In this document: piece after piece, positions 2,905 through 64,000 of the stretch
How positions within the stretch are numbered: position 1 is the first letter of the stretch
Layout: each line of letters begins with the position of its first letter
Source of the DNA: Alphaproteobacteria bacterium
Lineage (GTDB): Bacteria > Pseudomonadota > Alphaproteobacteria > SMXP01
Assembly: GCA_028285305.1 (NCBI GenBank)
Contig: JANQPV010000021.1
Coordinates: 62,001 to 126,000 of the forward strand
Reading direction: 5' to 3'
DNA: 64,000 nucleotides
Made by a program: the position numbers and the translations under genes
Notes under the pieces: generated by a model
The model's database searches: none
The model's input: the letters and a program-made list of their open reading frames with translations, nothing else
Told to the model about the DNA's origin: nothing

Positions 2905-3840
2905 TTACACCACAGTTTTGAAATAGTCGATCGTTTCGCGAAGACCTTCATCGAGCTGGACCTCTGGCGCCCAATCGAGAACTTGCCTTGCCAGTCGGAT
3001 ATCCGGCTGACGCTGTTTCGGGTCGTCCGTGGGCAAGGGCATCTGTATGAGATCTGCGGACGAGTGTGTCATATTCCGAACTTTTTCGGCCAATTCGCGG
3101 ATGGTGAACTCATTGGGGTTGCCCAAGTTTACCGGCCCGGTGAAATCAGAGGGGCTTTCCATCAATTTGATGAGGCCTTCGACGAGATCACTGACATAGC
3201 AGAACGAGCGTGTCTGCTCCCCTTCGCCGTAAATCGTAATGGGCTCGTCTTTGAGGGATTGGACGATAAAGTTGGAAACGACCCGGCCATCAGATGAATT
3301 CATGCGAGGGCCATAGGTGTTGAAAATCCGCGCTACTTTGATCTCAAGACCGTGCTGGCGATGATAGTCAAAGAACAAAGTCTCCGCGCACCTCTTGCCT
3401 TCATCGTAGCACGAGCGAGGGCCGATCGGATTCACGTTTCCCCAATACTCCTCCGTTTGCGGGTGGGTATGGGGGTCACCATAAATTTCGCTCGTGGATG
3501 CCTGCAGGATCTTGCATTTCAGCCGCTTCGCCAGACCCAGGAGGTTTATCGCACCGTGTACAGATGTTTTCGTGGTCTGAACGGGGTCATGCTGGTAGTG
3601 GATGGGTGAAGCGGGACATGCCAGATTGTAAATCTCGTCCACCTCAACATACAAAGGAAAGCAAACGTCGTGGCGGAGAAACTCAAACTTTGGGTTGTTG
3701 TGCAGATGATAAATATTCTGCTTGCTGCCGGTAAATAGATTGTCGACACAGAGGACTTCGTGTCCCCGCTCCAGCAGTGCATCGATAAGATGCGACCCCA
3801 AAAATCCGGCCCCGCCGGTAACCAAAACGCGACGCGTCAT
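2905..3840 (-). CDS. uxs: UDP-glucuronate decarboxylase (UDP-xylose synthase), extended SDR
   Basis: The protein has 311 residues, the normal length for bacterial UXS. The NAD-binding motif [10 protein letters not shown] lies at residues 9-18 and the catalytic YxxxK appears as YDEGK. Further family landmarks are the CPASPIHYQ region, TSEIYGDP and the [10 protein letters not shown] segment. UXS converts UDP-glucuronate to UDP-xylose with bound NAD+. It is the first gene of a minus-strand glycan operon followed by a GT4 glycosyltransferase, a radical SAM protein and a flippase. The 361 bp upstream hold no gene and probably contain the operon promoter. Confidence 0.92.
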
Positions 3841-4201
3841 CGACTAATTCCCACTCTTACCCAAATAGAAGAATTTGTCCGTGATTATTGCAGACTTCGT
3901 ACCAGTTAACCTGACCCAAAAAAAGCGAATTAGTGGGCGAGATCTATACGCTCAAGGTTGAAGTCAATCAGTGCTGAATCAAAGCAATTGCCTTGCTTTC
4001 GGTGTGGGGCGAACAACCAGTTTGTCGCTCGACATGCCCCCATTATCGCTTAGCAAGAATTTGAATCTTCGCGTTCTTTTTCCGGTTGTAGGCGAAATTT
4101 TGTAGGGATGCGGCTCTGACCTATTTTGAACGAACAGGGCGGTCCGGGTTCCGATTTTGTCTCACGAGCTCCCGAGAACCGGAGGATGGGGGATCCGACG
4201 C
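3841..4201. other. Intergenic region between uxs and amn
   Basis: This 361-bp AT-richer stretch lies between the start of uxs and the stop of the AMP nucleosidase gene, both on the minus strand. I see no convincing ORF, RNA gene or strong terminator. It should contain the promoter of the glycan operon. Confidence 0.5.
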
Positions 4202-60225: not shown

Positions 60226-61719
60226 CTATTTCGATTTGACGCTTAGCTCGGACTTGCAGAGAGCCAGGGTCTTTTCGGGGCTTCCGGATGCATCGATGAG
60301 ATGCCACCGGCTGGGAGGCGCATACTTGGACAGCTGTCGGCGAAGTATCTCTACCGTTGCGTCTGACGCGTCATTGATGCGTGACCGAATCCTTTCCTCT
60401 AGCACTTCGGATGGGGCCTCCAACCACAGACCGACAAATTCAACGCCAGTTCGCTTTGCGAAGGACTCAATGTGGTCCTGTTCGCTTGCGGACAAAAAGG
60501 TTGCATCTACGACAACGGATACGCCGGCTTTAACGGCGTGAAACGCGTCCTTGCACAATCGCTGATAGACACGCTCGCTGTTTGCCGGCGTATAGTGGTC
60601 TGCGCTGAGCCTGGTCTCGGCTTGGACACCGGCAAGGCGTTTGCGGATGCTGTCGCTGCGAATCACGATGCAATCGGTCGGTTCACTCAATGTGGCCGAC
60701 AGTCTGCGCGCGAGCGTGGATTTTCCCGTGCCCGAGAGTCCGCCCACGGCAATCAGTTTTGGGCTGGGGCGGGGTTGCAGAAATTTCAGAGCGTATTCCA
60801 AAAAGACAGGCGCTTCCTCGCGTTGGCTTTGACCGGCTTCCGGCAAACCGCCAACCATTGCCCGAATTGCCGCGCGCATCGACATGAAGAGCGGAAGGAT
60901 ACTTAGACCCGAGAAGTCGCGGGTGTTTTCTTCATATCTGCTGAGAAATGCGTTGGCTTCCTGATCAAGCCCTCTATGGACAAGATCCATCAGAAGAAAA
61001 CTCACATCATAGGCGATGTCGATACAGCGGAAACTGTCATTAAATTCGATCGCATCAAACGGCGTCGGCCGATCTTGAAACACACAAATGTTTCCCAAGT
61101 GCAAGTCGCCATGGCATTCGCGGACGAAACCACGGCGTTGCCTGGCATTTAGTCGCGCCTTTACCCGTTCCGCGCTCGTATTAATTAGATCGATCCAAGT
61201 GGCGACATCGGGCCCGCTCAATGGTGAGGGTGTTCCCTTTTTTATGTTGGATATGAGATCAGTTAGAGTTGCCTCAGTTCCTTTGAAGCCGCCATACTTC
61301 GGCGCCGCGGGCGCTTGTTTGTGGAAGTCTGACACGACGTCGGCTAAGTCACGAACCACCTTATCGCTTAGACCGTGGTGAAGGGCGAGCGAATCCAGTT
61401 GGGCGTCGTCGTCGAAGCGGCGCATTTTGACGGCCCACTCGATGACCTCTCCTTGACCGCAAAACCGAATGGTTCTGTTCTCAAGGGTTATCGGCACCAC
61501 AGCCAAGTAGAGGCCCGGAGCTATGCGCCGGTTCAGGCGGAGTTCTTTCGCACACGCTTTTCGTCTAAGCTCTAGAGAAGAATAGTCCAGGAAGTTATAT
61601 GAAACGTTCTTCTTAATTTTGTAGGCAAAGTCTTTGGTCAGAATAATGTGCGAGGCGTGGGTTTCGATGTGCCGGTTTTCCTGAGGTGCGGTGGAGGAAG
61701 AGACCAGCAGCGCGTTCAC
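60226..61719 (-). CDS. APH-like kinase fused to AAA-type ATPase
   Basis: The protein has 497 residues and starts with GTG. The N-terminal 300 residues form an aminoglycoside-phosphotransferase-like fold, with HGDLHLGN (residues 203-210) and FDAIEF as catalytic and metal sites. The C-terminal 170 residues carry a P-loop GGLSGTGKST (about 326-335) of the gluconate-kinase/zeta-toxin type. Such fusions are common but uncharacterised; small-molecule or protein phosphorylation is likely. An FNR-type box lies 227 bp upstream of its start. Confidence 0.88.
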   Translation of the reverse strand: MNALLVSSSTAPQENRHIETHASHIILTKDFAYKIKKNVSYNFLDYSSLELRRKACAKELRLNRRIAPGLYLAVVPITLENRTIRFCGQGEVIEWAVKMRRFDDDAQLDSLALHHGLSDKVVRDLADVVSDFHKQAPAAPKYGGFKGTEATLTDLISNIKKGTPSPLSGPDVATWIDLINTSAERVKARLNARQRRGFVRECHGDLHLGNICVFQDRPTPFDAIEFNDSFRCIDIAYDVSFLLMDLVHRGLDQEANAFLSRYEENTRDFSGLSILPLFMSMRAAIRAMVGGLPEAGQSQREEAPVFLEYALKFLQPRPSPKLIAVGGLSGTGKSTLARRLSATLSEPTDCIVIRSDSIRKRLAGVQAETRLSADHYTPANSERVYQRLCKDAFHAVKAGVSVVVDATFLSASEQDHIESFAKRTGVEFVGLWLEAPSEVLEERIRSRINDASDATVEILRRQLSKYAPPSRWHLIDASGSPEKTLALCKSELSVKSK

Positions 61720-61798
61720 AATCTCTTGTTGCGAGATGTCGTCGGACTTGGTGCGAACGGATCGGATGGTTGCCCCCTAGAATGACGGCCCCAAAAGG

Positions 61799-61840
61799 AC
61801 CCGCCGGCGGACTTAGCGAGGGGCATTTATGCCGGCGGGT
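61799..61840 (-). terminator. GC-rich hairpin, possible minus-strand terminator
   Basis: ACCCGCCGGC (minus strand 61840-61831) pairs with GCCGGCGGGT (61808-61799) around a 22-nt loop. It is followed on the minus strand by CCTTTT, a weak U-tract. It could end a transcript starting near the box at 61946-61959. Confidence 0.4.
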
Positions 61841-61945
61841 TGCATCCGAAAACTCACCTTGATGGCCCGTGAGGCCTTTTAGGTCAGATTTCAAATGGTC
61901 ATTTAGCTGACTCTTTGGAGATTAGTATTTTTCCGTCCAATCGCT

Positions 61946-61959
61946 TTGATCCAGATCAA
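61946..61959. promoter_or_regulatory. FNR/FixK-type box, perfect consensus
   Basis: TTGATCCAGATCAA matches TTGAT-N4-ATCAA exactly. Its target is uncertain: it is 500 bp from ccoN and 227 bp from the APH/ATPase gene. On the minus strand ACTAAT at 61926-61921 is a possible -10, but about 3 bp too close. Confidence 0.65.
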
Positions 61960-62065: not shown

Positions 62066-62112
62066 AAAAAAGTCCGCCGACTTCTTCAGCACTTGAAAAT
62101 TGATCGGCGGAC
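62066..62112 (-). terminator. Rho-independent terminator on minus strand
   Basis: GTCCGCCGA (minus 62112-62104) and TCGGCGGAC (62080-62072) form a perfect 9-bp stem around a 23-nt loop, followed by six T on the minus strand (62071-62066). Confidence 0.75.
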
Positions 62113-62207
62113 GTTCAGGAGAGAGATGAAAAAAAAGCGTGTCTAAAGCGGAGTTCAGCCGAGCGAATCAGCCTGATGTGTCACTTTCAGAACCCCTCTC
62201 AGGGTGA
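62066..62207 (-). ncRNA. Candidate FixK/FNR-induced small RNA (about 142 nt)
   Basis: On the minus strand a -10 element TATACA (62219-62214) lies exactly 29.5 bp from the centre of the FixK-type box 62242-62255, the class II (-41.5) geometry. Transcription would start near 62207. The first nucleotides form ACCCT-GAGA-GGGGT (62205-62192), a 5-bp hairpin with a GNRA-type loop. A U8 run (62136-62129) and a C/U-rich TCTCTCTCCTG that could pair with ribosome-binding sites follow, then the terminator. No ATG occurs in the transcript. All parts of an Hfq-type sRNA are thus present. Function and expression are inferred, not known. Confidence 0.55.
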
Positions 62208-62241
62208 GGTATGTGTATAGGCACAGCCTGGTCGAACCACA

Positions 62242-62255
62242 TTGACTGAAGTCAA
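62242..62255. promoter_or_regulatory. FixK-type box for the small RNA
   Basis: TTGACTGAAGTCAA fits TTGA-N6-TCAA. Minus-strand spacing to TATACA is ideal for class II activation. On the plus strand GATAAT (62281-62286) is about 3 bp farther than ideal, so the box might serve both directions. Confidence 0.65.
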
Positions 62256-62386: not shown

Positions 62387-62400
62387 TTGACTTGCATCAA
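62387..62400. promoter_or_regulatory. FNR/FixK-type box for ccoN
   Basis: TTGACTTGCATCAA fits TTGA-N6-TCAA. A class II start would fall near 62435, 22 nt before the ccoN ATG. The hexamer at the -10 position, CATGGT, is weak, as is common in strongly activated promoters. Confidence 0.65.
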
Positions 62401-62456: not shown

Positions 62457-64000
62457 ATGGCATTGAACGCAAATCAAGCGTCAACGAATCCAATTGATGA
62501 TGTCGTTCTCACAAGTGTCTTTCTAGCTTTTGGAATTCTGCTTTCGTTGTACGTGGCGGCGAACGCGGCTGATCCGCAAATGGAGATTCATGCTCTCATG
62601 TTTGCGGCAGCCTTTGCGTTTGGAGCTTTGTTTCTTGCTCGCCATGTGATGGAGGAGCCCAAAGCCGAACCCGGCGGCTATGCCATGGGCGTCGTGCGTG
62701 CGGGCGTCTTTGCCTCGGTGTTTTGGGGGCTTGCGGGCTTTCTTGTCGGGGTGGTGATCGCGGCCCAGCTTGCGTTTCCCAATTTGCTCTATTTCCCCGA
62801 TGCAGCATGGACGAGTTTTGGCCGGTTGCGGCCGCTACATACGTCCGCAGTTATCTTTGCCTTTGGCGGAAATGTGCTCATCGCTACGTCGTTTTATGTC
62901 GTGCAGAGAACATGTCGGGCGCGATTGTTCGGCGGCATCGCTCCTTGGTTCGTGTTCTGGGGGTACAACCTGTTCATCGTCATCGCGGCGACAGGATATT
63001 TGATGGGCGTTACCCAATCGAAGGAGTACGCCGAGCCTGAATGGTATGCGGATCTTTGGCTGACCATAGTCTGGGTCGTCTATTTGCTTGTCTTCTTAGG
63101 AACGGTTCTCAAGCGAAAAGAACCCCATATCTACGTGGCGAACTGGTTCTATCTGTCGTTCATCGTAACGATCGCCATGCTGCATATCGTCAACAATCTG
63201 GCGGTGCCTGTTTCTTGGACGGGCTCGAAAAGCTACTCGTTGTTCTCAGGGGTCCAGGATGCGCTCACGCAGTGGTGGTATGCCCACAATGCCGTGGGCT
63301 TCTTCCTGACCACTGGCTTTCTCGCCATCATGTACTATTTTATTCCTAAGCGCGCGGAACGTCCGGTCTATTCATACCGCCTGTCGATCGTTCATTTTTG
63401 GTCGCTTATCTTCATCTATATTTGGGCAGGACCTCACCATCTTCATTATACGTCTCTGCCCGAGTGGGCGCAGACCCTCGGCATGACGTTTTCGGTCATG
63501 CTGTGGATGCCCTCTTGGGGCGGCATGATCAATGGACTGATGACGTTGTCCGGGGCGTGGGATAAGCTTAGAACCGATCCTGTGTTGCGCATGATGGTGG
63601 TTTCCGTTGCCTTTTACGGTATGTCCACATTCGAGGGTCCGCTGATGTCGGTGCGGGCGGTGAACTCGCTTTCTCACTATACGGACTGGACGATTGGTCA
63701 TGTCCACTCAGGTGCTCTTGGCTGGGTTGGCTATATTAGTTTCGGCGCTCTATATTGCCTTGTTCCTTGGCTTTGGAATCGGAAGCAGCTCTACTCCAAT
63801 GCGCTTGTCGAGTGGCACTTCTGGATCTCGACGATCGGCATCGTTCTCTATATTACATCCATGTGGGTGTCCGGAATTATGCAAGGTCTGATGTGGCGGG
63901 CCTATAACGAATTCGGGTTCCTTCAATATTCGTTCGTGGAAACGGTCGAGGCGATGCACCCTTACTATATCATCCGTATGATTGGCGGATCGCTCTTCTT
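62457..64000 (+). CDS. ccoN: cbb3-type cytochrome c oxidase subunit I (cut by window edge)
   Basis: The frame is open from the ATG at 62457 to the window end (about 514 residues); full CcoN has a few dozen more or fewer. Haem and copper ligands are visible: His128 in RPLHTSAV, the Cu-B histidines at His277 ([10 protein letters not shown]) and His327-His328 ([11 protein letters not shown]), and His415 and His417 in [11 protein letters not shown]. CcoN is the catalytic subunit of the high-affinity terminal oxidase used at low oxygen. GAGGGA lies 6 nt upstream of the start. The remaining ccoOQP genes should follow outside the window. Confidence 0.96.

Follow-up and report, generated by a model that had tools for sequence, protein, structure and literature searches.

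The window, by which we mean the whole 64,000-nt stretch of DNA analysed, lies in contig 46 of a 5.4-Mb genome and carries at its right end ccoN (62457..63998, + strand), which runs past the window end and is the first gene of a cco operon continuing with ccoO, ccoP, ccoG, a CcoH-like gene, and a copper P-type ATPase gene. Marinicaulis/Parvularculaceae and other alphaproteobacterial MAGs supply the nearest ccoN sequences, at 79-88% identity, which identifies the source as an alphaproteobacterium. A FixK box serving ccoN, TTGACTTGCATCAA (62387..62400, + strand), is located 57 bp before the ATG, a position class shared by most ccoN loci. On the minus strand, the neighbouring gene (60226..61719) encodes an APH-like and AAA_33 kinase and will be called the APH-AAA gene; a separate FixK/FNR box, TTGATCCAGATCAA (61946..61959, minus strand), lies upstream of it. 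Its start is uncertain, for the frame stays open over 19 codons upstream of the earliest usable start codon, GTG 61719 (61719-61780, minus strand), up to a stop, without any ATG, GTG, or TTG. Between this box and the gene, at 61799-61842, a strong hairpin, ACCCGCCGGC/GCCGGCGGGT, is followed by CCTTTTGG on the minus strand and is a possible attenuator. About 15 kb downstream of ccoN are genes for FixK (best model Caulobacter FixK), FixJ, and FixL, assigned by scores that lie below the equivalog cut-offs of those models, and the genome also encodes Hfq.

A further FixK/FNR-type box with palindromic half sites, TTGACTTCAGTCAA on the minus strand (TTGACTGAAGTCAA in the opposite-strand reading), is present at 62242..62255, where the initial annotation had placed it. 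Because ccoN and the APH-AAA gene each own a separate box, this one is an orphan. The box pattern TTGAYNNNNRTCAA occurs 70 times in the 5.4-Mb genome, compared with 6 matches for the reversed-pattern control, which indicates that most FixK boxes of this genome are real. Six boxes are found in the window; those before a ring-hydroxylating oxygenase gene, OmpW, the APH-AAA gene, the RNA candidate described below, and ccoN, five in all, fall between 56964 and 62400. At loci L125-L128 (contig 4, 9-76 kb), 16 FixK-type boxes crowd into ~66 kb, apparently a low-oxygen island. One of these loci (L128, 5902-6180, + strand) likewise has a class II FixK promoter that is an orphan; behind it comes an unannotated frame of 41 codons, MRALLMIIVLALAVVGAAALIDYTGVADVPMIDVIEQADES, with an SD-like sequence.

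On its minus-strand side, the orphan box is followed after 22 nt by a -10-like element, TATACA (62214..62219), which starts 29.5 bp from the box center; the class II distance claimed for it is therefore correct. Across the genome, a TA dinucleotide occurs at the 22-nt offset on 15 of 114 box sides versus ~3 at other offsets (16 of 140 box sides genome-wide carry the class II TA), so class II spacing is in use in this genome. The element itself is mediocre, matching at 4 of 6 positions and missing the usual final T. The putative intergenic promoter carries an FNR-family box in the class II position, as expected of an FNR- or FixK-activated sRNA. The closest -10 on the + strand is GATAAT, whose start at offset 25 misses the peak of 22 by 3 nt. 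This bears on a rather unlikely alternative, in which the orphan box is an auxiliary upstream site of ccoN, or is inactive or decayed, with no leftward transcription and with a terminator that is coincidental or that blocks antisense transcription. An auxiliary role is consistent with the second, distal box seen upstream of ccoN in several relatives (L026, L032, L067, L077, and L082), and in the same-family genome G001 the only good box lies 256 bp upstream of ccoN, with class II spacing on the + strand. The 3-nt displacement of GATAAT argues against it, as do the proximal box that ccoN already has and the rarity of orphan minus-strand terminators.

This rarity was assessed as follows. A GC-rich hairpin lies on the minus strand 170 nt further along from the box and its -10 element, and forms an intrinsic terminator at 62066..62112. 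The initial annotation had described a 9-bp stem and six U residues; we found the U6 run, but the closing stem, GTCCGCCGA/TCGGCGGAC (62112-62072), has 10 bp and a long loop that holds a second small hairpin. The window contains six strong terminators, this one among them. Across 1.76 Mb of the genome, annotated with a simple gene caller, there are 49, of which 25 lie behind same-strand genes, 18 lie inside genes, and six, including this one, are orphans that do neither. No upstream minus-strand gene exists that it could serve. Among the 57 boxes examined, only the orphan box leads to a same-strand intergenic terminator without an ORF. Between an orphan terminator and a class II box side (16 in all), ~0.006 chance matches are expected over all sequence; a rough calculation that places orphan terminators only in intergenic DNA raises this number to ~0.05. 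The predicted transcript would thus end at an intrinsic terminator without containing a long reading frame, the arrangement of an FNR/FixK-activated sRNA.

From the promoter anatomy and the terminator, we predict a noncoding RNA of ~142 nt on the minus strand (62066..62207), whose 5' end could fall anywhere within 62205-62210. No ATG occurs in 62207-62066, in agreement with the initial annotation, and the longest frame between box and terminator has 18 codons. A 9-codon GTG frame is present within the RNA (62184-62155), and GAGAGGGG (62193..62200, minus strand) sits 8 nt ahead of its GTG at 62184. That the transcript encodes this very small peptide, VTHQADSLG, is nevertheless extremely improbable, since it has only nine codons and no relatives and its SD-like sequence is buried in the fold.

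The predicted fold of the 142-nt RNA is more stable than that of shuffled sequences (z-score -2.84, with 0 of 200 shuffles as stable), mostly through the contribution of the terminator. A 5-bp hairpin with a GAGA loop, proposed for the 5' end, can be drawn at 62205-62192 but does not hold up in the full RNA, where its probability is ~0.005 and it is 3.5 kcal/mol worse than the pairing of GAGAGGGG with CUCUCUCC; it is predicted solely early in transcription, when the first 30-70 nt have emerged. The U8 run claimed earlier exists (62136-62129) and is internal rather than terminal. It continues into a C/U-rich stretch (62128-62117), and the two together, UUUUUUUUCAUCUCUCUCCU (62117..62136, minus strand), could be an Hfq-binding or seed region. 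The stretch had been likened to an anti-ribosome-binding-site seed. Its composition is as described, but the pairing of GAGAGGGG with CUCUCUCC implies that the proposed seed is hidden in the predicted fold, and its seed function lacks statistical support, pairing no better than shuffled sequence. A chaperone could alter the predicted burial. Opposite the C/U stretch, at 62117-62137 on the + strand, AGGAGAGAG precedes ATG AAA AAA AAG CGT GTC TAA; the resulting frame has 6 codons and a good SD and is probably a by-product.

The fold and the map also bear on whether the RNA is a 5' leader with attenuation, in which FixK starts transcription at 62207 and conditional read-through of the terminator supplies the APH-AAA gene ~350 nt beyond it. 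RNA and gene are on the same strand with no gene between them, the APH-AAA gene belongs to the same cluster of FixK boxes, and alternative pairings are available upstream of the terminator. However, the terminator stem itself has no competitor among the predicted folds, and the APH-AAA gene carries its own box at 61946-61959; we regard such a leader as quite improbable.

Target prediction used the 30-nt U/C segment as the query against 1670 predicted translation starts, about one third of the genome. Anti-RBS pairing of this segment did not exceed that of shuffles, 33 of 80 of which reached the mean of the top 20. No near-complementary 20-mer with up to 3 mismatches occurs elsewhere in the genome, and starts with anchored AGGNGAGAGATG were not enriched (12 versus a permuted mean of 14).

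The comparison covered four genomes of the same family and none of the same genus; the BLAST sets were 60 relatives and ~385 genomes of the class. BLAST with the candidate RNA returned only chance hits in the 60 relatives and the ~385 class genomes, and a single-sequence covariance model gave no credible homologue in 190 class genomes, the same-family genomes, and 83 ccoN loci. The two strongest matches of this model were rejected as homologues, both being inside protein-coding genes. The candidate RNA matches no Rfam family at E values up to 1. The comparative check suggested in the initial annotation, namely of box, -10, hairpin, and terminator in relatives, thus revealed no conservation among the four same-family genomes, the 83 ccoN loci, and the ~385 class genomes. 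Absence of hairpin and terminator in relatives, which that annotation had named as a refutation, is what this set shows, although with none of its members from the same genus the RNA may still be a lineage-specific one. It follows that the RNA is either lineage-specific or not an RNA, and judged by these searches the candidate is apparently lineage-specific. A repeat or mobile-element origin was rejected, as the sequence is single-copy and has no direct repeats. In G001, the gene divergent from ccoN is a protein gene, tentatively ompW by its initial residues, and in genomes G003 and G004 no good box was found upstream of ccoN.

Taken on the strength of promoter, terminator, and gene layout, our preferred explanation, held with modest confidence, is that the orphan class II promoter produces a FixK-activated noncoding RNA of ~142 nt from the minus strand at low oxygen, acting in trans. 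FixK would activate this promoter when oxygen is low; transcription would proceed between ccoN and the APH-AAA gene and stop at the strong intrinsic terminator; and the RNA would lower the translation of mRNAs unwanted at low oxygen, probably together with Hfq and through the U-rich and C/U-rich segment. Alphaproteobacterial FixK regulons are known almost entirely through their protein genes, and our search of open-access papers yielded no sRNA reported to be directly controlled by FixK. If real, the candidate would add an FnrS-like RNA arm to the FixLJ-FixK cascade, one that is directly testable.

Several known RNAs resemble the candidate in part. FnrS of Escherichia coli, which is FNR-induced, shares with it an FNR/FixK-type box, a short intergenic RNA, an intrinsic terminator, and a low-oxygen logic (PMC8139620, PMC5703892), but the two differ in lineage, and Rfam shows no match in sequence or structure. 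In the case of PcrZ, an alphaproteobacterial low-oxygen sRNA of Rhodobacter sphaeroides in an FnrL-type network (PMC8139620), a PrrA site is present and FnrL may act indirectly, whereas the candidate has a direct class II FixK-type box. For its expression, the sRNA PhrS of Pseudomonas aeruginosa relies on the FNR-type regulator ANR (PMC5703892); its sequence and target are, as far as known, unrelated to the candidate. NfeR1/alpha-r14 and AbcR are alphaproteobacterial sRNAs with C/U-rich anti-Shine-Dalgarno seeds (PMC10746234). Their motif, CCUCCUCCC, which is unpaired in hairpin loops, is absent from the candidate, and unlike the alpha-r14 and AbcR seeds, the candidate's CUCUCUCCU is predicted to be paired and is no better than shuffled sequence; no FixK control has been described for these RNAs. 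By analogy, the candidate would at best work like FnrS, PhrS, or PcrZ, and is a plausible new example of the known oxygen-controlled regulatory RNAs, not a new kind.

A second RNA emerged at the ccoN loci of two other alphaproteobacterial genomes. On the ccoN strand of L047 (Kiloniellaceae; 3773-3902), a FixK box is followed by TAAAAC (offset 22), AUCUCUCACCUCCUUG, and a strong terminator made of a 10-bp hairpin and U7; the corresponding leader RNA of ~60 nt would stop 22 nt short of the ccoN ATG. Within AUCUCUCACCUCCUUG is CACCUCCUU, which we take to be the 16S anti-SD sequence. In the homologous locus L252 of genome G336, the box is identical at 14 of 14 positions and the RNA at 58 of 59, the single change falling in the hairpin loop, and TAGAAA occupies the -10 place of L047. 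No change is seen in the first 38 nt of ccoN either, but the promoter spacer is only 73% identical, the DNA farther upstream 56%, and ccoN codons 14-100 are 78% identical. The leader RNA matches no Rfam family. From this pattern of conservation, it is read as a FixK-box-controlled leader RNA, either an attenuator or an sRNA, and it is better supported than the window RNA. Both RNAs have a FixK box, a class II -10 element (in L047), and CAUCUCUCnCCU adjoining the terminator hairpin. Unlike the window RNA, the leader RNA lies on the strand of ccoN, is only ~60 nt long, contains a true anti-SD, and is conserved in two genomes. Given its conservation, FixK-controlled RNAs at ccoN may be commoner than annotation shows. 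It is highly doubtful that the two represent one recurring alphaproteobacterial theme, in which FixK-driven, terminated RNAs beside ccoN, bearing CAUCUCUCnCCU complementary to the sequence from SD to start codon, would tune translation upon induction of the cbb3 oxidase. The CATCTCTCnCCT beside the terminator of the leader RNA recurs in the window RNA, with a shuffle p of ~0.004 that was computed after seeing the data, so this shared element is suggestive only.
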